From NCBI RefSeq assembly GCF_019598945.1, contig NZ_CP080598.1:4154001-4218000 (forward strand): a DNA stretch of 64,000 nucleotides, given 5' to 3'. Of the stretch, positions 17,838-55,638 are shown one piece after another (the first letter of the stretch is position 1; every line of letters starts with the position of its first letter). A model generated the notes under the pieces. It was not told the DNA's origin, did not search any database, and saw only the letters and a program-made list of their open reading frames with translations. The translations under genes and the position numbers were made by a program. The DNA is from Sphaerospermopsis torques-reginae ITEP-024 (GTDB lineage Bacteria; Cyanobacteriota; Cyanobacteriia; Cyanobacteriales; Nostocaceae).

Positions 17838-18293
17838 ATGAACAGATTAATATTTCTCGATACAAACATTTTAGGAATGGTAACAAATCCTAAAAGTTCT
17901 AATTCCAGTTGTCAACAGTGCAAAGAATGGTTAGATGAAATACCCTTAAAAAATTATCAAGTAATTTTACCAGAAATTGCTGATTATGAAGTGAGACGAG
18001 AATTGCTAAGAGCAGGAAAAACAAAAGGAATTAAACGTTTAGATCAACTCAAACAAGCGATTACTTACTTACCTATTACTACTGCTACCATGCTTTTAGC
18101 AGCACAATTTTGGGCAGAAGTTAGAAACACAGGAAAAGCAACTGCTGATCCTAAATCTCTTGATGGTGATGTCATTTTAGCAGCACAAGCGAAAATAGAA
18201 GAATTAAATGGAAATCAAGTGATTGTTGCTACTACTAATGTTAAACATTTATCCTTATTTGTAGATGCTCATGAATGGCAAATGATTAATTAA
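17838..18293 (+). CDS. PIN-domain ribonuclease toxin (VapC-like)
   Basis: A 151-residue PIN-domain protein. The acidic metal site is built from Asp8 (IFLDTNILG), a Glu in LPEIADYEVRREL, and the Asp pair in SLDGDVILAAQA, followed by VIVATTNVKHLSLF. VapC toxins cleave tRNA or rRNA in a Mg-dependent manner when freed from their antitoxin. It follows its probable antitoxin by 17 bp, and the acidic set is complete. The following 180 bp before the ATP synthase operon hold only repeat-like sequence (CTCTGCGCCTCTGCG). Confidence 0.85.
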   Translation: MNRLIFLDTNILGMVTNPKSSNSSCQQCKEWLDEIPLKNYQVILPEIADYEVRRELLRAGKTKGIKRLDQLKQAITYLPITTATMLLAAQFWAEVRNTGKATADPKSLDGDVILAAQAKIEELNGNQVIVATTNVKHLSLFVDAHEWQMIN

Positions 18294-24997: not shown

Positions 24998-25129
24998 CAC
25001 TCTCTCGCTAAGTGTTAGTAAGAGTAGTTGCTTTTTTATAAGGGTTTTGACTCCGTTTAAGTCTAGCTCGACTTGGGCTAAAATATTGGTCAATCTGGCA
25101 CAAATGTTACATTTTCCCATGAACTCTAC
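24998..25129 (-). pseudogene. detached C-terminal copy of the 26.1-kb methyltransferase
   Basis: About 43 codons in frame read EFMGKCNICARLTNILAQ, then VELDLNGVKTLIKKQLLLLT. They align with the last 40 residues of the methyltransferase at 26127-27308 (EFMQKCNGSAKIADIISQ, then TELDLNGVRKIIKQQLLLLT). The DNA is also alignable, with roughly a quarter of positions changed. Upstream the similarity stops and the frame becomes hydrophobic noise. It is therefore a remnant of a tandem duplication or of an older gene copy, and a toxin-antitoxin pair now lies between the two. Confidence 0.8.
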
Positions 25130-25587: not shown

Positions 25588-25998
25588 ATGTCTTACTCTT
25601 ATTTACTGGATACTAATACATTATCAGACTTTATTAAACATCCCACAGGGAAAATTTTTTCTAAAATTCAAGAAGTTGGAGAAGAAAAAATTTGTACCAG
25701 TATCATTGTTGCCTGTGAATTACGATTTGGGGCAGAAAAGAAAAAATCTGTAAAATTGAAACAGCGTATTTCCCTCGCTTTTGAGATAATTCCTGTATTA
25801 TACTTAACACCCAATGTAGATGACAATTACGCAGAAATCCGTGCTTATTTAGAACAACAAGGAACACCCATTGGTAGTAATGATTTGTTAATTGCTGCTC
25901 ATGCTATCACTTTAAATCTTACAGTTGTTACAAATAATGTCCGCGAATTTTCTCGTGTTCCTAATTTGCGGGTGGAAAACTGGCTGAACACTAATTGA
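25588..25998 (+). CDS. vapC: VapC-type PIN toxin
   Basis: A 136-residue PIN-domain ribonuclease. Asp8 in YLLDTNTLSDF, the Glu in ACELRFGAEKK, Asp in IGSNDLLIAAHA and the C-terminal TNNVREFSRVPNLRVENW are all as in active VapC/FitB toxins. The start codon follows the antitoxin stop by 1 base. The pair lies between the methyltransferase and its detached C-terminal copy. Confidence 0.9.
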   Translation: MSYSYLLDTNTLSDFIKHPTGKIFSKIQEVGEEKICTSIIVACELRFGAEKKKSVKLKQRISLAFEIIPVLYLTPNVDDNYAEIRAYLEQQGTPIGSNDLLIAAHAITLNLTVVTNNVREFSRVPNLRVENWLNTN

Positions 25999-26126: not shown

Positions 26127-27308
26127 CTAATCTCCAGGTGTTAATAAGAGTAATTGCTGTTTTATTATTTTTCTGACTCCGTTTAAGTCTAACTCGGTTT
26201 GGCTGATAATATCGGCTATTTTGGCAGAACCATTACATTTCTGCATAAATTCAAATTCTGCATCTGATAAATTGATGATTTGGTAATCGTAGTTAAATAT
26301 ACATTTGCTGGGAAACCCATCTATGCAGGGGTTAAGCTCTGGTATTGCTGCTAATAAGCTGTTTTCGTCTGTCCAGTCGTGTTTGGTTAATGGGGGACGA
26401 GTGAGGAAAAATTCGTAATGGGCTACTTCTGGATTCAGTAATTCTATCAGGCGGTATTTTTGGCGATCGCTCAAATTTCCTGCTCTCTCTATTAACTCTG
26501 GTGCTTTACCTAATAGTCTGTCTAAATCCCAAAATCCTGGATTGGAAAATCCTACAAAGTCTAATTCTGAAGCGTCTATTAATTCAAACAAGGTATCAAT
26601 ATTGTAGTCTGTTTCCTGGGGATGTACGTACATATCCGCAAAACATTCATCCCTCTGGTTTTCCATTGCCCATCTTTCTTTTTCTCTCTTGACAAGTCGG
26701 TTATTTTCTGGTAAAGAGGCAAAGATTTTTCTACCAACTTGCACTCCATCCCGATAGTCACCGCGTTTATCACCTTGGAGAAGGGCGATCGCCTTTTGCA
26801 TTAGTTGTATTTCCCATCTTCCCAATTCTCCATAGACAAAAATGTGCATTAACCCACCAGGAGCGAGTTTTTTCGCTAATGCTGGAATACCACGAATGGG
26901 ATCTGGTAGATGATGAAGCACACCAACGCAATTAATTAAATCAAATTGTCCTGGTATTTGTTCCACATCGTAAATACTCAGGTGATGAAATTTTACACGA
27001 TCAGCACCGGAACTTTGACAGCGTTTTTTTGCTACTTCTAGTGTACCCGCACTTAAATCAATTCCGACTACCTGCGCGTGGGGGTTGAGATGTACTAAAT
27101 ATTCTGTACCGACTCCTGAACCACAACCAGCATCTAAAATGCGGATATTTTGGTTTTGTGGTTTTCTCCCTGTGCAGAAGTTGTAAGCAGCTAACCAATT
27201 CCAACGCCAATTATATCCTGGTGGTGGTTCGTCCAGGATGGGTTCGGGGGGGAAAGGGTAGGTATCGTAGAGTTTCGCAACAGCAGCACTTACTTGGGAG
27301 TCGGACAT
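26127..27308 (-). CDS. class I SAM-dependent methyltransferase
   Basis: A 393-residue methyltransferase. The SAM site has ILDAGCGSGVGTEYLVH at about residues 56-72, the acidic loop VVGIDLSAGTLEVAKKRC, and INCVGVLHHLPDP after strand 4. A C-terminal domain of about 80 residues after the Rossmann part (DGFPSKCIFNYDYQIINLSD to the end) resembles small PqqD-like tails often fused to such enzymes in cyanobacteria. The substrate is unknown, and nothing in the neighbourhood suggests one. The N-terminus (AKLYDTYPFPPEPILDEPPP) is typical of a widespread cyanobacterial group. Confidence 0.88.
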   Translation of the reverse strand: MSDSQVSAAVAKLYDTYPFPPEPILDEPPPGYNWRWNWLAAYNFCTGRKPQNQNIRILDAGCGSGVGTEYLVHLNPHAQVVGIDLSAGTLEVAKKRCQSSGADRVKFHHLSIYDVEQIPGQFDLINCVGVLHHLPDPIRGIPALAKKLAPGGLMHIFVYGELGRWEIQLMQKAIALLQGDKRGDYRDGVQVGRKIFASLPENNRLVKREKERWAMENQRDECFADMYVHPQETDYNIDTLFELIDASELDFVGFSNPGFWDLDRLLGKAPELIERAGNLSDRQKYRLIELLNPEVAHYEFFLTRPPLTKHDWTDENSLLAAIPELNPCIDGFPSKCIFNYDYQIINLSDAEFEFMQKCNGSAKIADIISQTELDLNGVRKIIKQQLLLLTPGD

Positions 27309-27434: not shown

Positions 27435-27606
27435 TAAGAGGATGTTTTAAAAGTTTTGGGCGAATATAATTCGCTACTACACAAGTAAAGTCCACCTGCG
27501 TGGACTAATGAAAAATTAAGGTTTTTTAACCCACGCACCATCTGGGTTTTGTCTGTGTAGATGTGATTTCTAATCACCCTAGTTGGGCTTTTAAAACATC
27601 CTCTAA
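27435..27606. mobile_element. 166-bp MITE-like element (GAGGATGTTTTAAAAG termini)
   Basis: Perfect 16-bp inverted repeats, GAGGATGTTTTAAAAG at 27438-27453 and its complement at 27588-27603, are flanked by TAA on both sides (27435-27437 and 27604-27606). This is a TNA target duplication as made by IS5-family transposases. It has no reading frame of its own, but its right end overlaps the last nine codons and stop of the PIN gene on the minus strand. It is related in sequence to the elements at 7398 and 7892 (GAGGATGT start). Confidence 0.85.
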
Positions 27607-28014
27607 ATAAATCTCTACATTTCTAGTATTCCATGTTGCAATACCAATCCCAAAAAAATCTTGATCTTCTGTCCATATTGGAGAATTTAACGCTAGAGCG
27701 AGAGCTACTATTTGCCCATCTTTAATATCTCTTTCTTCCATTCGCTTTTTAGCATCTTCCTCATATTCAAGATAAATTTCTTCATCTATTGGCATGACTA
27801 CTTTTTGAAGTTTATCAATAGCATTTAAAAATGGTTCTAAAGGAATATTCCGCTTTTTTAAAATTTTGGGCAAGTGTTCATTCAATTAATCATAACATGA
27901 AGCGGGAGTCACAAAACTACAGTTATAGTTGTATTTCTCAAATAAATTGCTAACTCGTTCTCCTAAAACTGCGCGAATGAGAATATTAGTATCAAGGATA
28001 ATTAACTTTCTCAT
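27574..28014 (-). pseudogene. PIN toxin gene broken by a nonsense codon
   Basis: From an ATG at 28014 the frame reads MRKLIILDTNILIRAVLGER through codon 42 (TPASCYD), then TAA at 27888-27886 as codon 43. It continues in the same frame with LNEHLPKILKKRNIPLEPF to a stop at 27574. Read through, it is a PIN protein of normal length (about 146 codons) with the first Asp (ILDTNIL) and later acidic motif (KDGQIVALALAL, TEDQDF) on opposite sides of the stop. The last residues (EDVLKAQLG) come from an inserted repeat element. Either the toxin is dead, or only the N-terminal peptide and a re-initiated fragment are made. Confidence 0.85.
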
Positions 28015-28274
28015 TGTTGCTTACTATTTTTAGCATTCTGGAAATCGGCTAATAAATCATCTTCACTAATACCTTTTGTTTCTAGTAAATGTTTAATTTT
28101 TTGTACTGCTTCCTGCAAGGCAATTAAATCTTGTTTTTGTGGATTTGGTTGTGTCGGTATGTAATAACCTATTGGTACACCATGAGAAGTAATTGCGATT
28201 GGTTCGGAATTTGGTTGTGTGTATTTATGTAAGTTGGCACGAAATTCTTTGATGCCTACAGATTGAATTTTCAT
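28011..28274 (-). CDS. Phd/YefM-type antitoxin of the broken PIN module
   Basis: An 87-residue antitoxin with the Phd/YefM start (IQSVGIKEFRANLHKYTQPN, then PIAITSHGVPIGYYIP) and a helical toxin-binding tail. Its TGA overlaps the ATG of the toxin frame by four bases (ATGA, 28011-28014), the usual coupling in such operons. The gene is intact although its toxin carries an in-frame stop, so it may be kept as a free antitoxin or DNA-binding repressor. Confidence 0.85.
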   Translation of the reverse strand: MKIQSVGIKEFRANLHKYTQPNSEPIAITSHGVPIGYYIPTQPNPQKQDLIALQEAVQKIKHLLETKGISEDDLLADFQNAKNSKQQ

Positions 28275-28498: not shown

Positions 28499-29155
28499 AT
28501 GGCGCTTGGTTTACCTGAGTTTGTTGAAAACCCTGAAAATCGTTGTCCGGTAGTTCTGTTATTAGATACTTCTGGTTCAATGTCAGGTCAAGCTATACAG
28601 GAGTTAAATACAGGTTTGGCGGCTTTCAAGGAAGATGTATTAAAGGATGCTCATGCTTCTTTAAGTGTGGAAGTGGCTATAGTTACTTTTGGACCTGTGC
28701 GACTGATACAAGATTTTGTCACCATAGACCATTTTACACCGCCCAAACTAGAAGCAGATGGTGGAACACCAATGGGTGAGGCGATAGAATATGCTTTAAA
28801 TTTAGTGGAAAAACGTAAACAGACTTATAAAGATAATGGTATTCTCTATTATCGTCCTTGGGTATTTTTAATTACTGACGGTGCGCCTACAGACTATTGG
28901 CAAAATGCAGCGCAAAGGGTGAGGGAAGAAGAAGAACAGCGCCGAATGTTGTTTTTTACTGTTGCTGTGCAAGGTGCGTATATGAATAAACTCAGAGAAA
29001 TTGCACCACCTGGACGGCCTCTAGTGATGTTAAATGGTTTAGATTTTCGTTCTTTATTTGTTTGGCTTTCTACTTCTATGAAACGGGTTTCTAGTGGCAA
29101 AGTTGGGGAAGTTGTAGCATTACCTCCAGTGGGATGGGGGCAAATTACAAGTTAA
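28499..29155 (+). CDS. vWA-domain protein (TerY/YegL-like)
   Basis: A 218-residue protein that is one von Willebrand A domain. The metal-binding MIDAS set is present: LLLDTSGSMSGQ near residues 20-31, the Thr in DGGTPMGEAIEYAL, and LITDGAPTDYW. It has no signal peptide or membrane helix, so it is cytoplasmic, as in TerY and E. coli YegL. It opens a set of three genes in the same direction (vWA, PP2C, kinase), matching the known vWA-PP2C-kinase triads of Ter-type stress systems and the E. coli yegL-yegK-yegI group. The vWA part is thought to be a metal-dependent protein-binding scaffold. Confidence 0.88.
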   Translation: MALGLPEFVENPENRCPVVLLLDTSGSMSGQAIQELNTGLAAFKEDVLKDAHASLSVEVAIVTFGPVRLIQDFVTIDHFTPPKLEADGGTPMGEAIEYALNLVEKRKQTYKDNGILYYRPWVFLITDGAPTDYWQNAAQRVREEEEQRRMLFFTVAVQGAYMNKLREIAPPGRPLVMLNGLDFRSLFVWLSTSMKRVSSGKVGEVVALPPVGWGQITS

Positions 29156-29167
29156 TTTGTAGAAACC

Positions 29168-29232
29168 AGATCCCCGACTTCTAACATAAGTTGATTATTT
29201 ATTGACATGATGAAAAAAGAAGTCGGGGATCT
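29168..29232. repeat. 15-bp inverted repeat (AGATCCCCGACTTCT)
   Basis: Perfect 15-bp arms, AGATCCCCGACTTCT and AGAAGTCGGGGATCT, are separated by 35 bp in the gap between the vWA and PP2C genes. It could cause partial termination or RNA stabilisation between them. The arm sequence is of a type often seen as dispersed repeats in Nostocales. Confidence 0.8.
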
Positions 29233-29267
29233 TAGCTATTAAATTAGATTTTGAGGATTTATTTATT

Positions 29268-30062
29268 GTGGGTTGGAAAGCTATAGCGCGTTTTGCGGTG
29301 GGAACGAGTCATCAAGAGCAAAAAATACCTTGTCAAGATTACGGACATTATCGCATTTTTAATGATGTGATTGTGGGTGCGGTTGCTGATGGTGCTGGAA
29401 GTGCTAAATATTCTCATATTGGTTCTAAAGTAGCGGTAGAAACTACGCTCAAATATCTTTCTACAATTAGTGAGTATCTTCAGCAGCGAAAACGATGTTG
29501 GCAGAAGGTTTCTCAACCACTTTCAGAACAAGAAGCAAAAAAGCTTTTTACTAAAACCGTTAATCATGTAATTTCAGATTTAACAAAACAAGCAGCAAAT
29601 AAAGATTATTCTGTTAATGATTTAGCTTGTACATTATTGGTTTTTGTAGCAACTCCTGAATGGGTTGCAGCTATGCAAATTGGAGACGGGTTTATTGTCA
29701 TGAGTTCTCAAGATACAGAATATCAAATGTTGTTTAAACCAGATAAGGGGGAATTTTTCAACGAGACAACTTTTGTCACTTCAGTTAGTGGACTGGAGGA
29801 AATGCAGGTAAAGGTATTTTCAGGAAAGCAAGAATTTATTTGTGCTGCTACTGATGGACTAGAAAAAGTAGCAATTAGATTTAGTGACTGGCAACCTTTC
29901 CTGCCATTTTTTAAACCTTTAGAGGCATATTTGCGAGAAACAGAAAATCCTGGATGTGATGGAGATAATTATATTATGGATTTTCTTGAGTCTGATAGGT
30001 TAAATGCTCGTACTGATGATGATAAAACTTTGGTTTTATGTTTGTTTGAAAAAGAGATTTAG
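29268..30062 (+). CDS. PP2C-family protein phosphatase (YegK-like)
   Basis: A 264-residue PP2C-type phosphatase. Metal-binding Asp residues lie in VGAVADGAGSAKYSHIGS and in CAATDGLEKV, with ACTLLVFVATPEWVAAMQIGDG matching the central motif and a final Asp region TDDDKTLVLCLF. It starts with a GTG at 29268 giving GWKAIARFAVGTSHQEQ, the start typical of phosphatases in vWA/kinase triads. It should remove phosphate from targets of the kinase encoded downstream. Confidence 0.88.
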   Translation: MGWKAIARFAVGTSHQEQKIPCQDYGHYRIFNDVIVGAVADGAGSAKYSHIGSKVAVETTLKYLSTISEYLQQRKRCWQKVSQPLSEQEAKKLFTKTVNHVISDLTKQAANKDYSVNDLACTLLVFVATPEWVAAMQIGDGFIVMSSQDTEYQMLFKPDKGEFFNETTFVTSVSGLEEMQVKVFSGKQEFICAATDGLEKVAIRFSDWQPFLPFFKPLEAYLRETENPGCDGDNYIMDFLESDRLNARTDDDKTLVLCLFEKEI

Positions 30063-30488
30063 TAGACTCAATTAAATGATGGGCGGGCAGGATGCCCAGC
30101 CCACAAAAGTGACAGCACTTTCTGGTGTTATGAGCTACACCACGGGCGGGCAAGATGCCCACCCCACAAGAGTTTTATTATTAAAATTTGTACCTCATAG
30201 CAATGGAATCTGCTGTATATCCCACATTCCGAACTTCGCTTTGTAATACATGAAGATTACGAAAATTGCGGTTAATGGTGGTTGAATAGCGATCTCCGAA
30301 TGGCTATAATTAATACGTTTAAATATTGAATAATATCAACATTTTTTGTAAAATTTATTGAAGTATTAACGTATGACATTTTGAAGTGCGGAAAGTCGGT
30401 TATATATTGATTGTGGGATGGGCTTCTAGCCTGTCCTAGTAAACAATACTATTTGATATTGATTTCATCCCATTTACTGAAAAATTAT
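30063..30488. repeat. intergenic repeats between PP2C and kinase genes
   Basis: The 426-bp gap holds two copies of a hairpin repeat (GGGCGGGCAGGATGCCCAGCC near 30082 and GGGCGGGCAAGATGCCCACC near 30145). A degenerate third copy (GGGATGGGCTTCTAGCCTG) sits near 30415, inside the longest possible 5' extension of the kinase frame. The rest is AT-rich with no gene. The kinase probably has its own promoter here. Confidence 0.65.
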
Positions 30489-32414
30489 ATGACGTTTCTA
30501 ATTTGTGATAGTACGAGTGAAAGAATTACTTTGTTAAATGAAATAGCTGCTAGTGGAGAAGCTAAAGTTTGGCGAACTAATCATCATGGTTATTTAGCTA
30601 AAATTTACCATTCACCAACACCTGAAAGAATGGAAAAATTAGCGGCAATGATAGCGCACGCACCAAAAGAGCCAAATTCCCATCTTAATCATATTTCTTT
30701 TGCTTGGCCTAATTCATCATTAAGAGATGATCAAGGTGATTATGTAGGTTTTTTAATGCCAGAAGTTAAAGGTGGAAAAGAGCTTATTAATATTTATAAC
30801 CCCCAGCTTCGTAAGAGCTTAAAGCTTGAGATTAATTGGCGTTTTCTACACACTACGGCTTTAAATATTGCCTCAATTATTGCAGCATTACATGAAGCTG
30901 GTTATGTATTAGGTGATATTAAACCACAAAACATTTTAGTTAATAATCGTGCTTTACCTTCGATTATTGACACAGATTCTTTTCAGGTGAAAAATCCCAA
31001 AAATGGTAAAGTTTATCGTTGTTTAGTTGGTTCAGAAGGATATACACCACCGGAATTAATTGGTGAAGATTTTTCTAGGATTGAACAAACGGAAATACAT
31101 GATAGATTTCGATTAGCAGTAATTATTTATCAATTGTTATTTGGTGGTAATAGTCCTTTTCAGGGAATATGGACAGGTGGGGGAGAAACTCCAGAAGTTA
31201 ATGAACTTATTAAGCATGGTATATGGTTGTATTCTCAAAATAGTTTGATTGAGCATGTAGAGAGAACAATTCCTATGATAATTGTTCATCCTGCAATTCG
31301 GGAATGTTTTCTCAGATGTTTTAATGATGGGTATAAAAATCCTCATTTACGTCCGACTGCTAAGGAGTGGTTAGAGGTTTTAAGAATAGGAAATGATAAC
31401 TTAACTGTATGTGATAGGGTAGATAGTCATTTTTATAGTAGAACTTATGGTAGTTGTTATTGGTGCGATCGCTCTACAAAGTTGGGTGTTGATATTTTTG
31501 CTGGTGTTGTTAAGGTAAAACCATCTCTTGTTGTGGAATCACCCCTACAAACCCTCACTGGTCATTCTAACTTGGTTACGTCAGTAGCATACAGCCCTGA
31601 TGGTCAAACTCTGGCTAGTGGGGGTGACAAGACTATCAAACTGTGGGAAGTAAAAACGGGAAACCCCCTACAAACCTTCACTGGTCATTCTAACTTGGTT
31701 ACGTCAGTAGCATACAGCCCTGATGGTCAAACTCTGGCTAGTGGGGGTAATGACAACACTATCAAACTGTGGGAAGTAAAAACGGGAAACCTCCTACAAA
31801 CCTTCACGGGTCATTCTTACTGGGTTGGGTCAGTAGCATACAGCCCTGATGGTCAAACTCTGGCTAGTGGGAGTAATGACAACACTATCAAACTGTGGGC
31901 TGTAAAAACGGGAAACCTCCTACAAACCTTCACGGGTCATTCTGACTGGGTTGGGTCAGTAGCATACAGCCCTGATGGTCAAACTCTAGCTAGTGGGAGT
32001 AATGACAACACTATCAAACTGTGGGACTTAAAAACGGGAAACCTCCTACAAACCTTCATTGGTCATTCTAACTCGGTTTGGTCAGTAGCATACAGCCCTG
32101 ATGGTCAAACCCTTGCTAGTGGAAGTCGTGACAACACTATCAAACTGTGGAATGTAAAAACGGGAAACCTCCTACAAATCTTCACTGGTCATTCTCACTG
32201 GGTTATGTCAGTAGCATATAGCCCTGATGGTCAAACTCTGGCTAGTACAAGTAATGACACGACTATCAAACTGTGGGATGTAAAAACGGGAAACCTCCTA
32301 CAAATCTTCACTGGTCATTCTCACTGGGTTACGTCAGTAGCATATAGCCCTGATGGTCAAACCCTTGCTAGTGGGAGTGGTGACAAGACTATCAAGATAT
32401 GGCGGTTAAGGTGA
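30489..32414 (+). CDS. YegI-like protein kinase fused to a seven-blade WD40 domain
   Basis: A 641-residue protein. Residues 1-340 are a divergent Ser/Thr kinase: the nucleotide-binding Lys is probably in YLAKIYHS, the catalytic loop is LGDIKPQNIL (Asp142) instead of HRD, and the metal motif is IIDTDSF (Asp160) instead of DFG, as in YegI-type kinases of vWA/PP2C triads. A zinc-ribbon-like stretch (CYWCDRS) precedes residues 350-640, which hold seven WD40 repeats of 41-42 residues, enough for one closed propeller. The ATG at 30489 is chosen because the upstream frame is repeat sequence. The WD40 part probably recruits substrates. The fusion differs from the E. coli form, which lacks WD40. Confidence 0.88.
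   Translation: MTFLICDSTSERITLLNEIAASGEAKVWRTNHHGYLAKIYHSPTPERMEKLAAMIAHAPKEPNSHLNHISFAWPNSSLRDDQGDYVGFLMPEVKGGKELINIYNPQLRKSLKLEINWRFLHTTALNIASIIAALHEAGYVLGDIKPQNILVNNRALPSIIDTDSFQVKNPKNGKVYRCLVGSEGYTPPELIGEDFSRIEQTEIHDRFRLAVIIYQLLFGGNSPFQGIWTGGGETPEVNELIKHGIWLYSQNSLIEHVERTIPMIIVHPAIRECFLRCFNDGYKNPHLRPTAKEWLEVLRIGNDNLTVCDRVDSHFYSRTYGSCYWCDRSTKLGVDIFAGVVKVKPSLVVESPLQTLTGHSNLVTSVAYSPDGQTLASGGDKTIKLWEVKTGNPLQTFTGHSNLVTSVAYSPDGQTLASGGNDNTIKLWEVKTGNLLQTFTGHSYWVGSVAYSPDGQTLASGSNDNTIKLWAVKTGNLLQTFTGHSDWVGSVAYSPDGQTLASGSNDNTIKLWDLKTGNLLQTFIGHSNSVWSVAYSPDGQTLASGSRDNTIKLWNVKTGNLLQIFTGHSHWVMSVAYSPDGQTLASTSNDTTIKLWDVKTGNLLQIFTGHSHWVTSVAYSPDGQTLASGSGDKTIKIWRLR
31540..32400. repeat. seven near-identical 126-bp WD40-coding repeats
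   Basis: Seven head-to-tail units with shared blocks such as GTAGCATACAGCCCTGATGG and GACAACACTATCAAACTGTG. They differ mainly in the codons just after GGTCATTCT (residues after GHS), the loops on the face of the propeller. The first unit is 3 bp shorter. Such identity at the DNA level implies recent expansion or homogenisation. Confidence 0.9.
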
Positions 32415-32581: not shown

Positions 32582-33720
32582 TAGACCTGTCCGAAATATA
32601 TACAAAAAAATGGTAGAACGGTAAATTGAAGATATACCGTGAATCTACCCAACATGAAAAATATTATCCATTATATACATTCGTACCCAAAACGCGCTAG
32701 GGGTATACTGGGAATTAGCTATGATAAATTGATTTCATTGATGGAGGTGGCTAAGTTAACTCATCAGGAGCAAAAAGCTCAGGTAGAAAAAAATAAAAGG
32801 CGTGTTAATGCGCCTGGTGGCGGGCGTAAACCAAAATTAACAATTGAAGAAGAAATATGCCTGACACTATTTTATCTCAGGCAAATGCCAACATTTGAAG
32901 TATTAGGATTACAGTTTGGTATTTCCAAGACAAAAGCAAATGATACATTTCATTACTGGCTAGGAATATTGAGGAAGATTTTACCATCTAGTATGCTAGA
33001 ACAATTAGAAAATCAGGAGGGAGATTATGCAATTGTTAAGGAACTATTACAGGATTTTGAGTTAATCGTAGATAGCTTTGAGCAAGCTATAGAAAGACCG
33101 GAAGACAATGATGAGCAAAAAAGATACTATTCGGGAAAGAAGAAATATCACTCATTTAAAAATCAAGTTGTCTCCATGCCAAAAGGTAAAGATATAGTAG
33201 ATGTGACGGTAGGAAAGCCAGGACCGACTAGCGATATTTCTTTGTTTAGAGGTCAACAAGAAAAATTTGATTCTGGACAGAGATTTCAAGGAGATAAAGC
33301 TTATACAGGTGGAGATAATATGACTACACCTAAGAAAAAGCCCAGAAATAAAGAATTAACAGATGAACTTAAAAGTTGCAAATAAAAAGCTGACTAGTAA
33401 ACGAATTTTTGTAGAGCATATTATCAGAATTATTAAAATATTTCGCATAGCATCATCAAGATTTCGTCTTCATAAAGATACTTATGAAAAAGTAATATTG
33501 ACGATTTGTGGATTGGTGAGGTTACGAATTGATTCTCTAGTTTTACCAAATTTATGATATGTGTTAAAAGTATGCAGATGATGAAATAACCATCGGCATT
33601 TTTTCCGGGCTATATTAACAGTAACTATCTCTAGCCCTGATGATTACGTCAAGTCTGGCTCACATGAAAACATCCTCAAAGCCCGACACAGACTGCCTTT
33701 TTAATTTTCGGACAGGTCTA
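32582..33720 (+). mobile_element. IS5-family insertion sequence
   Basis: A 1.14-kb element with 15-bp perfect inverted repeats, TAGACCTGTCCGAAA at 32582-32596 and TTTCGGACAGGTCTA at 33706-33720. The outer TA on both sides may be the duplicated target. It encodes one transposase in two frames and then about 160 bp of noncoding right end. It sits behind the kinase-WD40 gene and does not interrupt a recognisable gene. Confidence 0.88.
32654..33557 (+). pseudogene. IS5-type transposase in two frames
   Basis: The first frame (to 33385) has the helix-turn-helix part (LTIEEEICLTLFYLRQMPTF, then GISKTKANDTFHYW) and the first two acidic residues of a DDE_Tnp_4 domain (ELIVDSFEQAIERP, GPTSDISLF). After LTDELK it runs into a stop. 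The +1 frame continues as VANKKLTSKRIFVEHIIRII, carrying the third acidic residue in VEH, and ends at 33557. The shift lies in CTTAAAAG. It is either a one-base insertion in the A run that kills the enzyme, or a programmed or slippage frameshift. The DDE triad is complete only if the frames are joined. Confidence 0.8.
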
Positions 33721-41683: not shown

Positions 41684-42874
41684 TTAATAAGCTAACATCA
41701 TTTCTGCAATATCTACCTCAGAAAATCCCATTAATTTTCCCACTTGTTTAATGTACATTTTTTCCGTTATGTGAAAATCTCCATCACGCTTGGCAAGAGC
41801 GATCAAATCAATTAATAACCCTAAAGCATCATCGGGATATTTAGCTATTAATGAATAATCTACTTCTATTCTCTGGGCAGATAATAAATTTTTAATTTCC
41901 TTAATTTCTTCCACTGTTAAATTAGCATTGGTAATAATCGTCTTGAGATATTCTTTCTCTTCAGGTTCAATACTACCATCAACTTTCATTAAATTAATCA
42001 GGGTTTTAATCTTTAATAATTCTAGTCTTTCTCCTGTTATACAGCACTTTGCGTAACGTTTAGGTACAAAAACATAAGACAGAATTATTACATCAAGCTA
42101 GAAAATAGGATATGAACTGTACTAGATAGACGTGCAAAGTGCTGTATTATTTTCTTCTATATCAGATGGAGGAAGAAGACGATCAGTGTATTCAATGCTA
42201 CATTCACTTAATGATTGAGTCTCATCTAATATCTCAATTTCTTTTTCAAATATTTGAATAGCCTTATTACCTACTTGTTTAGTTGAATAGGCAGACCATA
42301 AACCCATAGCAGTAGCACCAACTCCAGGCAACCATTTGCTAACGCTTGATTTTAATACCTGTTGGGCATATTTTCCTGCTATCCAACGAGCCGTGTCTTG
42401 AAATATTGGAGTGCTTACTTTTCGAGCAATAATTTTACTGCCTTGAGCAATAATAACTCTATTTGCTACTGCATTGATGCCGGGTGTGATTAATTTTGTA
42501 CCCAATGCAGAAATTAAGACACCTGCTAATAGTTCTTTGTTTAAATATTGCTGCTTATCATAAGCTACACCCACATCATAAATCATGGCAATTTGGTTTC
42601 GCATGACTGTGATAATTTCTGGAGCAACTGCTAACATTCCCAATGGACCCGGTACTAAATTAGCTGCTACTGATATCCCTCCATTACATTTTGCATAGCC
42701 ATTGACAATTGAATTAGCTGATTCTATGGAAGGTCTTTGATGTTGATAAGGATTTTTAGCAAAATAATTACTTCTATCTTGGGCAACTATATCAAAAGAA
42801 GTAATTATTTTTTCACCGATTTGGTTTTGTAGTTCTTGAATAACGTTATTACTTGTATTTTGTTGGTTGATCAT
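41684..42874 (-). pseudogene. EcsC-like/TerB-like gene split by a 105-bp inverted-repeat element
   Basis: The 5' part (42874-42122) encodes 250 residues with a glycine-rich, membrane-associating region like EcsC/DUF697 proteins (AAPxx-like AVAPEIITVMRNQIAMIYDV, GVLISALGTKLITPG, WLPGVGATAMGLWS). Its last residues, TALCTSI, are read from an inserted element that supplies TAG. The 3' part (to 41684), in the same frame, encodes a TerB-like domain (ITGERLELLKIKTLINLMKV, DGSIEPEEKEYLKTII, DGDFHITEKMYIKQVGK), but its N-terminus has no start codon before Met at 41989. Removing 105 nt joins the halves as EENNITGERLELL. I infer one ancestral protein of about 365 residues. Both pieces may still be made. 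Confidence 0.8.
42040..42146. mobile_element. 103-bp MITE-like element with TA duplication
   Basis: Inverted repeats TACAGCACTTTGC at 42040-42052 and its complement GCAAAGTGCTGTA at 42134-42146, perfect over 13 bp, with TA at both outer edges. Taking one TA as the target, the insert is 105 nt (42042-42146). It contains no gene. TA duplication points to an IS630/Tc1-type or TA-targeting transposase. It interrupts a coding frame (41684-42874). Confidence 0.85.
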
Positions 42875-43093: not shown

Positions 43094-43468
43094 TCAAAAC
43101 TCCCATTCAATTACACCAAGAATGGCAGCAGCAATTTCTGACATTGTAACGTCAGACACATTACCCAATTTGCGAATGAATCTTTGTAAATCTACACCCC
43201 TCAGTTGTAAAGCGTCAATTGCTGAAACTTTCGCTAAACTATTTGTAGTGTCAGGTTCAATTTTTACGTGCCAGAAATCTTGTGAGAAATATGGTTTCCA
43301 GTCTGTAATAGGAGCAATAAGTTTGATAGGAAGTTTACCTACTGCATCAGAACTAATGACAACAGCAGGACGGACTTTCTTAATTTCTGCACCAATAGTA
43401 GGATCAAAATTAACCAACCAAATTTCTCCCCGCTTAGGTATGTCACGGTTAGTAGTCCACGATGTCAC
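43094..43468 (-). CDS. mazF: MazF/PemK-family endoribonuclease toxin
   Basis: A 124-residue MazF-type toxin of SH3-like barrel fold. It has PKRGEIWLVNFDPTIGAEIK at the start, KKVRPAVVISSDAVGKLPIK with the conserved Arg-Pro, and IAPITDWKPYF. The C-terminal AIDALQLRGVDLQRF is also conserved in the family. It cleaves mRNA at short sequence motifs when free. Its first 20 bases overlap the antitoxin gene. Confidence 0.9.
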   Translation of the reverse strand: MTSWTTNRDIPKRGEIWLVNFDPTIGAEIKKVRPAVVISSDAVGKLPIKLIAPITDWKPYFSQDFWHVKIEPDTTNSLAKVSAIDALQLRGVDLQRFIRKLGNVSDVTMSEIAAAILGVIEWEF

Positions 43469-45595: not shown

Positions 45596-45866
45596 GATTA
45601 TTAATAGATAAAAGTAGAGTAAATGAAACAAGATATTCTTGTAATTAATACAAAATTTGGCAAATAAGTATATATACTAGTAGTTATTCGGAAAACTTGA
45701 CCATAAAATGTTACGCAAAACAAGATATTTTAACTTTTCTTCAGCAAAAATGTCAAAAAAGTTAAATTTTGGTTAACAATGAAAAAAATGTACCGATGTG
45801 CGGTATTTAAAAATAAGGATAATAAAAAGTTGTGCATCGCACCTTGGTAGAACTCAAGATAATAAA
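45596..45866. promoter_or_regulatory. upstream region of the ergothioneine genes
   Basis: About 270 bp, very AT-rich. I see no repeat and no clear operator. Weak -10-like TATATACTAG sequences lie near 45671. The ribosome site of egtB is weak (CTCAAGATAATAAA). A longer in-frame extension to 45798 exists but its residues do not look like the family. Confidence 0.4.
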
Positions 45867-47231
45867 ATGCAAACAATTCCCAGGCTGAATAACTTAGCAT
45901 CTACTCAAATACCCAAGCTAGATCATTGTAGTACCGAAAACCTGCTCAACTATTTTGAAAATTCTTGGGAACTAGAAGCAACCCTACTCAAAAGCATAAC
46001 TAGCACAGATACATTTTACCGCTGTCCTGATCCTTTAAGAAACAAATTAATCTTTTATCTGGGACATTCGGCAGTTTTTTACATCAACAAATTAATTCGG
46101 GTTGGTTTATTAGAAAAGCGCATTCATCCTCAATTTGAAATTCTGTTTGAAATTGGTGTTGATCCAGAAACACCAGATGAACTAGAAGCAGCAACAAAAG
46201 ATATCGTCTGGCCTGATGTAGATCAAGTTTGGCAATATCGAGAAAAAGCCAAAACCGCAATTACAAACATTATCAAAAATACACCTTTAAATCTGCCCAT
46301 TGATCAACAACATCCTTTATGGGCTTTATTAATGGGAATTGAACACAGTCGCATTCATTTTGAAACTTCATCCATGTTACTGCGTCAATTACCTGTTGAT
46401 CAATTAAAACGCCCCCAAGGTTGGAATTATGCGCCTACAAATGGGAAAACTCCTAATAATAAAATGATGAAAATTCCCGGTGGTGTGGTAAAATTAGGTA
46501 AAAAAGATGATGATTTAACTTTCGGTTGGGACAGTGAATATGGTAGTTTAGAAATTGGAGTTGAACCGTTTTTAGCCAGTCAAAATTTAATCACCAATGG
46601 GGAATTTTTAGAATTTGTTCAAGCTGGTGGTTATGAAAATTTAGAATATTGGATGCTGGAAGCTAGGGATTGGAAGAAACTCTATAATGTGCAACATCCA
46701 AAATTTTGGATACCAGATTTTATGGACAAAAACAATGGTAAATACCGCTATCGTGCTACCTTTGATGAAATAGATTTACCATTAGATTGGCCTGTGGAAG
46801 TCAATTATTATGAAGCTATAGCTTACTGTTGCTGGAAAGGTGGTAATACTCGGTTAATGACAGAAGCAGAATGGAATCAAGCTTTACAATTTTCTGGGGG
46901 TGATGGTTTAGAAAATAAGTACAATCTCAATTTACAATATATTTCACCTTCACCAGTAGGAATGTGTTCAAAAAACAATAAATCAGGTATTTTTGACTTA
47001 CGGGGGAATGTTTGGGAATGGTTGTCTAGTATATTTTACCCCTTACCAGGATTTCAAAACCACTATCTGTATGAAGATCAATCAGCGCCATTTTTTGATA
47101 ATAGACATCAAATGATGTTAGGTGGTTCTTGGGCAACTAATGGTACTATGGCTTTACCATGTTATCGAAATTGGTTTCGTCCTTTTTTCTATCAGCACGT
47201 TGGTTTTAGAATTGCTGAAAGTTTGAATTAG
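45867..47231 (+). CDS. egtB: EgtB/OvoA-like sulfoxide synthase for ergothioneine
   Basis: A 454-residue non-heme iron enzyme that couples a thiol (cysteine or gamma-glutamylcysteine) to hercynine with O2. The N-terminal DinB-like half has FYRCPDPLRNKLIFYLGHSA and MGIEHSRIHFETSS, giving the iron ligands His160, His164 and, within the HxxxHxE pattern, Glu166. The C-terminal half is an FGE-sulfatase/C-type lectin domain (IPGGVVKLGKKDDDL ... DLRGNVWEWLSS ... MMLGGSWATNGT). These motifs are closer to OvoA than to mycobacterial EgtB. With EgtD next door the product should be ergothioneine, matching published work on convergent evolution in cyanobacteria. It starts at the ATG at 45867. Confidence 0.9.
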   Translation: MQTIPRLNNLASTQIPKLDHCSTENLLNYFENSWELEATLLKSITSTDTFYRCPDPLRNKLIFYLGHSAVFYINKLIRVGLLEKRIHPQFEILFEIGVDPETPDELEAATKDIVWPDVDQVWQYREKAKTAITNIIKNTPLNLPIDQQHPLWALLMGIEHSRIHFETSSMLLRQLPVDQLKRPQGWNYAPTNGKTPNNKMMKIPGGVVKLGKKDDDLTFGWDSEYGSLEIGVEPFLASQNLITNGEFLEFVQAGGYENLEYWMLEARDWKKLYNVQHPKFWIPDFMDKNNGKYRYRATFDEIDLPLDWPVEVNYYEAIAYCCWKGGNTRLMTEAEWNQALQFSGGDGLENKYNLNLQYISPSPVGMCSKNNKSGIFDLRGNVWEWLSSIFYPLPGFQNHYLYEDQSAPFFDNRHQMMLGGSWATNGTMALPCYRNWFRPFFYQHVGFRIAESLN

Positions 47232-47259
47232 TTGACAGGTGACAGGTGACAGGTGACAG
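47232..47259. repeat. heptamer tandem repeat (GACAGGT)
   Basis: Nearly four copies of GACAGGT directly after the egtB stop, in the 115-bp gap before egtD. It is the reverse complement of the tract between atpH and atpA. Confidence 0.85.
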
Positions 47260-47346
47260 TTATAGAAAACTGTTTAGATATGTCTGAAACACCGCAAAAT
47301 TACGAAAAATAAAAATTGTAAACAGTTAACTCCCAGGATATTTACC

Positions 47347-48339
47347 ATGATTGCAGAAACATTGAACCCACAAATTTTAACAGTTTTAGATCATCATTAT
47401 CAAGAGTTAGCTATTGATGGTAAAGATGTGATTGAGGGATTAAGTAAAAAACAAAAAACTTTACCACCAAAATACTTTTATGATGATCGTGGTTCTTTGT
47501 TGTTTGAAGAAATTTGTGATTTACCAGAATACTATCCCACCCGCACAGAAGCATGGATTTTACAACAATATGCTGATGAAATTGCAGAAATTACAAATTG
47601 TTGTGAGTTGATAGAATTAGGAAGTGGAAGTTCTACAAAAACACAACTTTTATTAGACGCTTATCAAAAAATAGCTGATAATTGTCGTTATCTTCCTATT
47701 GATGTCAGTGGGGGTATTCTCAAAACCAGCGTTTTACAGTTACAAGAGAAATATCCTGATATTGCAATTCATGGTTTATTAGGAACTTATGATCAAGCTT
47801 TGGTGCATTTAGAAAGTAATTATTTACAGTCGCGGATGTTGTTTTTTCTGGGAAGTTCGCTAGGGAATTTTAACCCAGAAGAATGCGATCGCTTTTTAAA
47901 TCAAATTTCTCGCACTTTACAAAGTGGTGATTACTTTTTGTTAGGAATTGATTTACAAAAACCCAAGGATATTTTAGAAGCAGCTTATAACGATAGTCAA
48001 TGTGTGACTGCTGCTTTTAATTTGAATATGCTTTCTCATTTAAATTGGCGTTTTCAAGGTGATTTTGACATTAGTTTGTTTAAACATCAAGCAATTTACA
48101 ATGAGGTAGAAAATCAAATTGAAATGTATTTACATTGTCAAAAAAGCCATTGGGTAACTTTGGAAGCTTTGGATTTAAAAGTATTTTTTGAAGGAGGAGA
48201 AAGCATACTTACAGAAATTTCTCGCAAGTTTAATTTAACAAAGATGTCACAACAACTAGAAAGTAAAGGATTAAAAACTATCAAAACTTGTACAGACGAA
48301 AAGGGATGGTTTGGATTGATTCTTTGTCAGGTTGAATAA
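47347..48339 (+). CDS. egtD: L-histidine N-alpha-methyltransferase EgtD
   Basis: A 330-residue enzyme that trimethylates histidine to hercynine with three SAM, the first step of ergothioneine synthesis. It has the family start (KTLPPKYFYDDRGSLLFEEI, then LPEYYPTRTE), the SAM motif LIELGSGSSTKT and FFLGSSLGNFNPEE, LLGIDLQKPKDILEAAYND, and the substrate-site region TAAFNLNMLSHLN. The length matches characterised EgtD (about 320). It is encoded right after EgtB, so the pair makes a complete minimal ergothioneine route; EgtC and EgtE are not adjacent. Confidence 0.95.
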   Translation: MIAETLNPQILTVLDHHYQELAIDGKDVIEGLSKKQKTLPPKYFYDDRGSLLFEEICDLPEYYPTRTEAWILQQYADEIAEITNCCELIELGSGSSTKTQLLLDAYQKIADNCRYLPIDVSGGILKTSVLQLQEKYPDIAIHGLLGTYDQALVHLESNYLQSRMLFFLGSSLGNFNPEECDRFLNQISRTLQSGDYFLLGIDLQKPKDILEAAYNDSQCVTAAFNLNMLSHLNWRFQGDFDISLFKHQAIYNEVENQIEMYLHCQKSHWVTLEALDLKVFFEGGESILTEISRKFNLTKMSQQLESKGLKTIKTCTDEKGWFGLILCQVE

Positions 48340-55233: not shown

Positions 55234-55638
55234 TCAAGACAAATATGTTTCCTTAAACTGAGAAACTGAGATAATTTTAGTCTCAATTAGTGCTTGTGCT
55301 TCGCTAAAATCTTTATCCCCAGTAATCAGTAAATCAGCTTTAGACGCTATAGCACAGCTAAGAAACTTGGCATCTTTTCTATCTCTTTTAAACTCAATAG
55401 TATTATCAACTTTAATTAAAGTAGTAACATCTTTTACACATTTTAGAAAAAGATTGCGTCTATCTAAATTAATGTTTAACTTTTCTCTATTTAATACTGA
55501 TTGATACTCTTCAAGAATTTCTTCTGAGACTAACCAAGTATACTCTAAATTAAAGGCAACAAATAAAACTACTTGTTCAGGGACTTTATTTTTCAGAGCA
55601 GCAGATATGAGAATATTAGTATCTATAATAACCTTCAT
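55234..55638 (-). CDS. PIN-domain toxin (COG1569 type)
   Basis: A 134-residue PIN protein of the putative toxin family with KVIIDTNILISAALKNKVPE at the start (Asp6), SEEILEEYQSVL with the second acidic position, and RDRKDAKFLSCAIASKADLL followed by TGDKDF for the third and fourth. All acidic residues are present. Its ATG overlaps the antitoxin stop by four bases (ATGA). Confidence 0.88.
   Translation of the reverse strand: MKVIIDTNILISAALKNKVPEQVVLFVAFNLEYTWLVSEEILEEYQSVLNREKLNINLDRRNLFLKCVKDVTTLIKVDNTIEFKRDRKDAKFLSCAIASKADLLITGDKDFSEAQALIETKIISVSQFKETYLS

Follow-up and report, generated by a model that had tools for sequence, protein, structure and literature searches.

The YegL-PphC(YegK)-YegI trio of Escherichia coli consists of a vWA protein, a PP2C phosphatase, and a Ser/Thr kinase. 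YegI is an autophosphorylating membrane kinase that is dephosphorylated by PphC (PMC13232886); the literature searched yielded neither a trigger nor a substrate for this system. The TerY-P triads of tellurite resistance, CoCoNuT, and other defence loci are likewise composed of vWA, PP2C, and zinc-ribbon kinase proteins, and TerY-P-like modules with a kinase-OB fusion are described as stand-alone defence systems, according to PMC11090510. The same trio occurs in actinobacterial conflict systems, in which the kinase is fused to a ribbon plus a further domain or TM helices (PMC7159879). In cyanobacteria, Ser/Thr kinases carrying C-terminal WD40, TPR, GUN4, or DUF323 domains have been surveyed, an arrangement with WD40(7) included; the consulted passages of this survey list the domains of each kinase, with no description of the vWA-PP2C triad or of exchange at a single locus (PMC2176072). 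Furthermore, kinase-CLec proteins diversified by diversity-generating retroelements (DGRs), consisting of a serine kinase with a C-terminal lectin-like domain, have been reported in cyanobacteria, with no mention of PP2C (PMC7517822).

The DNA analyzed here, hereafter the window, comprises 64,000 nucleotides of Sphaerospermopsis torques-reginae ITEP-024 (NZ_CP080598.1, positions 4,154,001 to 4,218,000), a genome consisting of one 5.25-Mb contig. The window contains a vWA-PP2C-kinase trio on the plus strand, whose open reading frames and Pfam domains agree with the initial annotation. Direct comparison with E. coli K-12 (L168) also substantiated, for all three genes, the kinship to YegL-YegK-YegI proposed there. 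The vWA gene (28499..29155) encodes a YegL/TerY-like protein of 218 amino acids (Pfam VWA, 4.7e-12), 53% identical to YegL (E 2e-69), and the MIDAS motif DTSGS...GGTPMG...ITDG is kept in the alignment with YegL. The PP2C phosphatase gene (29268..30062) has a GTG start and encodes a PphC-like protein of 264 amino acids (Pfam PP2C_2, 1e-55), 31% identical to PphC (E 4e-37), with the metal-binding motifs ADGAG, GDG, and DDDKT kept in the alignment with PphC. The kinase (641 amino acids) most likely starts at ATG 30489, where the alignment of its relatives begins, and not at TTG 30411. Its residues 1-340 (30489..31508) form a YegI-type Ser/Thr kinase core with a C-terminal Cys-His-Cys-Cys ribbon, 34% identical to YegI (E 8.5e-50), followed by an exchangeable C-terminal module of seven near-identical WD40 repeats (31509..32414, Pfam WD40). 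Both divergent motifs highlighted initially, LGDIKPQN and DTDSF, are found in the kinase. The best 25 Pfam matches listed include none to the kinase domain; NCBIfam and PADLOC kinase models match residues ~110-255.

Judged by sequence, the trio is a member of the known YegL-PphC-YegI / TerY-P family. It resembles the E. coli system in its three proteins and in their gene order, except that yegJ is inserted in K-12, and a Cys-His-Cys-x-Trp-Cys ribbon is common to YegI and the window kinase. The tails differ: that of YegI, inspected by eye, consists of hydrophobic helices, a coiled-coil-like part, and a helix-hairpin-helix-like part, whereas that of the window kinase is a WD40 propeller. Among 13 aligned relatives, kinase residues K38, D143, N148, D161, D163, E189, and D205 are invariant, as are C308, H314, C323, and C326 of the putative zinc ribbon. 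An AlphaFold2 model of the kinase core, built from this alignment, was too poor for use (mean pLDDT 53.6). Purifying selection on the core parts is indicated by dN/dS values of 0.07-0.26 (vWA), 0.18-0.35 (kinase core), and 0.26-0.47 (PP2C); one PP2C pair nearly without changes gave 0.8.

The genes of many relatives are separated by gaps of only ~10-20 bp, whereas the spacers in the window measure 112 and 426 bp and bear repeats. The vWA-PP2C spacer (29156..29267) contains a perfect inverted repeat (arms 29170-29182 and 29218-29230), a small, mobile-repeat-like hairpin that recurs at the same place in L013/L052 and L019/L060. The PP2C-kinase spacer (30063..30488) contains two similar GGGCGGGCARGATGCCC repeats at 30081 and 30144. 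Because these repeat-bearing spacers part the genes, co-transcription of the trio is open to doubt. An IS5-family transposase gene, apparently broken, lies directly 3′ of the kinase (32639-33560); its 248-aa open reading frame stops early and transposase-like sequence goes on beyond it.

Besides the triad of the window, the source genome encodes a paralogous one (contig 2288000-2290778), in which the kinase bears a TPR tail. We refer to this paralogous TPR-tailed triad as type A, and to triads with a kinase core at least ~47% identical to that of the window as type B. Of 193 Nostocaceae genomes, nearly all contain a homologue at type A distance. Type B occurs in about 50 of them and in scattered members of further families and orders of the phylum; the comparison covered about 50 type B loci from Nostocaceae and 21 from elsewhere. 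Co-occurrence of the three genes in other genomes, on which the initial annotation had staked its reading, is seen in nearly all type B loci. The order vWA, PP2C, kinase on one strand is kept in nearly all complete loci and recurs in dozens of genomes, so the triad is not a product of chance; a few loci have no recognized vWA or PP2C gene within the stretch compared.

Among named organisms, the closest relative identified was Sphaerospermopsis kisseleviana NIES-73 (PP2C 97% identical). The type B triad of the window, of S. kisseleviana, and of several other genera is flanked on one side by apcE and on the other by a methyltransferase gene that adjoins ATP synthase genes. Thirteen genomes that lack a type B triad have the same methyltransferase gene and apcE with no triad in between, and in two further genomes only the vWA gene is left there. 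Other species carry the triad at other sites, and the copy of Trichormus variabilis ATCC 29413 (AVA_RS26675-26670-26665), whose kinase is WD40-tailed, resides on plasmid A, which is typed as conjugative. We regard type B as accessory, given the occupied and empty forms of the apcE site, the other locations, and the plasmid copy. Since some relatives lost the kinase and kept only the vWA gene, the parts of the triad are not always needed together. S. kisseleviana (L052) has two type B triads 10 kb apart, with 7 and 14 WD40 repeats; in the copy nearest to that of the window, the vWA gene is more diverged, with a dS of 0.18 against 0.01 for PP2C and the kinase, which suggests a recombined mosaic. 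At another locus (L071:4365-7643), two type B kinase cores are joined head to tail in one frame of ~1095 aa, followed by a WD40 tail. Within the window, the stretch 25004-25126 (minus strand) is a short copy, 59% identical, of the terminal part of the methyltransferase gene (26127-27308).

In contrast to the TerY-P triads, no attached ter or restriction genes were seen here; nor did we see for window-type triads the tie to GAP1-N2 GTPase systems that marks the actinobacterial trio. Assignment to the PADLOC TerY-P anti-phage system was rejected, as the TerY model scored 15.6 bits (E 0.0022) against the window and the STK_OB model gave no match to type B kinases. The TerB-like domain placed about 10 kb away by the initial annotation is real (41699-42004, minus strand; 38.9 bits, above Pfam's cut-off), located 9.3 kb past the kinase with apcE in between. 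A link between this domain and the triad was discarded: in 93 other triad loci, searched up to ~10-20 kb each, no TerB homologue was found. The surroundings of the triad also contain PIN/VapC, weak Phd-like, and PemK/MazF toxin-antitoxin genes (17838-18293, 25588-25998, 27574-27885, 28011-28274, 43094-43468, and 55234-55638). At 45798-48339, a DinB + FGE-sulfatase protein is followed by a histidine-specific methyltransferase; these EgtB/EgtD-like genes probably serve ergothioneine synthesis.

While the kinase core is conserved, 16 tail classes by our own sorting are found behind the ribbon, the WD40 tail of the window being one of them. They comprise WD40 arrays, either bare or with a proline-rich linker and a membrane helix, a membrane helix alone, a helix followed by WD40, TPR, TPR-PDZ, WD40-PDZ-TPR, TonB_C, GUN4, an OB-like domain with TPR or GUN4, a LamG-like domain, a PQQ-like propeller, and one to five copies of FGE-sulfatase/C-type-lectin domains, the OB, LamG, PQQ, FGE, and membrane-helix assignments being made by eye or below threshold. 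On a tree of 70 cores, the classes change 29 times, a figure that merging WD40 with WD40-plus-helix would reduce; at least 15 changes would be required in any case, and shuffled labels averaged 45.9. Unrelated tails are found even on pairs with cores that are 93-96% identical and with flanking DNA that is 90-95% identical on both sides. Loci L070 and L080 share 92.7% DNA identity over the 4.4 kb ending with the core and 90.5% over the 3.8 kb starting at the stop codon, while their tails differ except for one 61-bp stretch. Similarly, L055 (TonB) and L057 (WD40, 13-14 repeats) are 94-96% identical upstream, and their next conserved downstream stretch is 94% identical. Because near-identical cores and flanks on both sides bear unrelated tails, the tail module has been swapped in place, presumably by recombination. 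The L070 tail itself is pieced together from a WD40 part sharing 83% identity with the tail of another type B locus and a PDZ part sharing 86% with that of a third; matches elsewhere in the searched genomes are weaker. The modules thus seemingly circulate mainly among type B loci. Our literature search, which lay outside most subscription journals, returned no report of in-place tail exchange on a conserved triad. This exchange is the new element here; the triad family and WD40-tailed cyanobacterial kinases were already known.

Pfam recognizes seven WD40 repeats in the window kinase, in line with the seven-bladed fusion first noted. A survey of triads, as had been suggested, showed WD40 fusions to be common (36 of 70 relatives). 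The fusion by itself is therefore not special, but one among many interchangeable tails. The repeats of the window measure 42 amino acids (126 bp) and share 83-96% DNA identity with one another. Recent copying from a different WD40 gene in the source genome was excluded, as the best match there reaches only 68% DNA identity. Counted with a small model built from the repeats of the window, 19 arrays have 7 repeats and 3 have 14, most low counts belonging to type A, to divergent repeats escaping the model, or to incomplete loci. Closed seven-bladed propellers are expected of WD40 proteins in general, and the counts of 7 and 14 fit such propellers.

In the FGE-tailed loci L124, L127, L129, and L130, which form one lineage, most of the differences at the ends of the tails fall in NNC codons bordered by constant flanks, and these tails look like variable regions of DGRs. 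A template (TR) was not detected within the 10-kb loci of the FGE-tailed kinases. One genome of this lineage (G266) does have a DGR, in which 13 of 13 changes between TR and the neighbouring target fall at A; the correspondence of this TR to the triad kinases is inexact. The complete-looking DGR of L204 and L208 has a reverse transcriptase bearing YVDD, a small accessory protein, a TR with 13 AAC codons, and an FGE-domain target. The window kinase was dismissed as a DGR target, its tail being WD40 and not FGE/lectin. The kinase-CLec proteins of PMC7517822 resemble the FGE-tailed kinases; here, by comparison, the kinase is part of a triad, and the lectin-like tail has many alternatives. We infer that some of those proteins belong to window-type triads.

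We propose, with a probability of roughly 0.7, that the triad is an accessory reversible Ser/Thr-phosphorylation switch of the YegL-PphC-YegI / TerY-P family in which the tail acts as an exchangeable sensor or docking module. Given the homology to the E. coli trio, the window trio is expected to act as a kinase-phosphatase switch that includes a vWA adaptor. The kinase core would phosphorylate itself and a substrate, the PP2C enzyme would take the phosphate off again, and the vWA protein would serve as a metal-dependent adaptor joining the parts or the substrate. The tail behind the Cys/His ribbon would constitute a plug-in module for recognition. That of the window, a soluble seven-bladed WD40 propeller, may bind a protein partner and thereby determine the place or time of kinase action. 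As the tail is replaced while core, phosphatase, and vWA protein stay constant, it is best read as the recognizer of a ligand, a partner, or a place. The swaps among at least a dozen unrelated domains suggest that recognition is a plug-in function added to a fixed signalling core. The stress or defence role initially attributed to such triads is plausible.

How the switch is used can be read in different ways. It is possible, though on balance doubtful, that the triad is an anti-phage defence switch, its tail a receptor for phage products and the exchange an arms-race diversification, as proposed for the kinase-OB TerY-P modules. The patchy presence in about 50 of 193 Nostocaceae, the occupied and empty forms of one chromosomal site, the copy on a conjugative plasmid, and the toxin-antitoxin genes close by favour this reading, and the OB-like tails at some loci recall the kinase-OB modules called stand-alone defence systems in PMC11090510; the DGR-like hypervariable tails point the same way. 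However, the match to the PADLOC TerY and STK_OB models is poor, no effector gene is consistently attached at the triad loci examined, and the near-universal, TPR-tailed paralogous triad has a housekeeping-like distribution. This last observation would suit a regulator of stress or housekeeping functions, with tails that serve only to place it at a membrane or complex and that drift more or less neutrally, WD40 and TPR arrays resizing by easy repeat recombination. Some tails are indeed plain membrane anchors (L076, L080, L125) or repeat domains, and E. coli YegI is a membrane kinase (PMC13232886). Nevertheless, we consider this explanation rather unlikely, as the blade counts lie at 7 and 14 instead of being spread, and unrelated folded domains (TonB, GUN4, PDZ, FGE) interchange near the core-tail border, which goes beyond repeat drift.

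Decay to an inactive remnant is highly improbable. Repeat insertions in both spacers, the IS5-type transposase fragment behind the kinase, and broken kinases in some relatives are compatible with it, but all three genes of the window are intact, their catalytic residues are kept, and dN/dS is low. The exchangeable-module switch also admits a more far-reaching version: an immune-like chassis with a fixed core, modules exchanged by recombination and hypermutated by DGRs in one lineage, and tails acting as receptors for phage or environmental ligands. We deem this version unlikely.

Near-identical cores with different tails, some at one chromosomal site, amount to a natural domain-swap experiment. 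This natural series suggests that input or docking is the task of the tail and makes the question testable. C-terminal exchange is known in polymorphic toxins and other conflict systems. If the tails are receptors, the triad would represent a Ser/Thr-kinase counterpart of the C-terminal exchange of polymorphic toxins.
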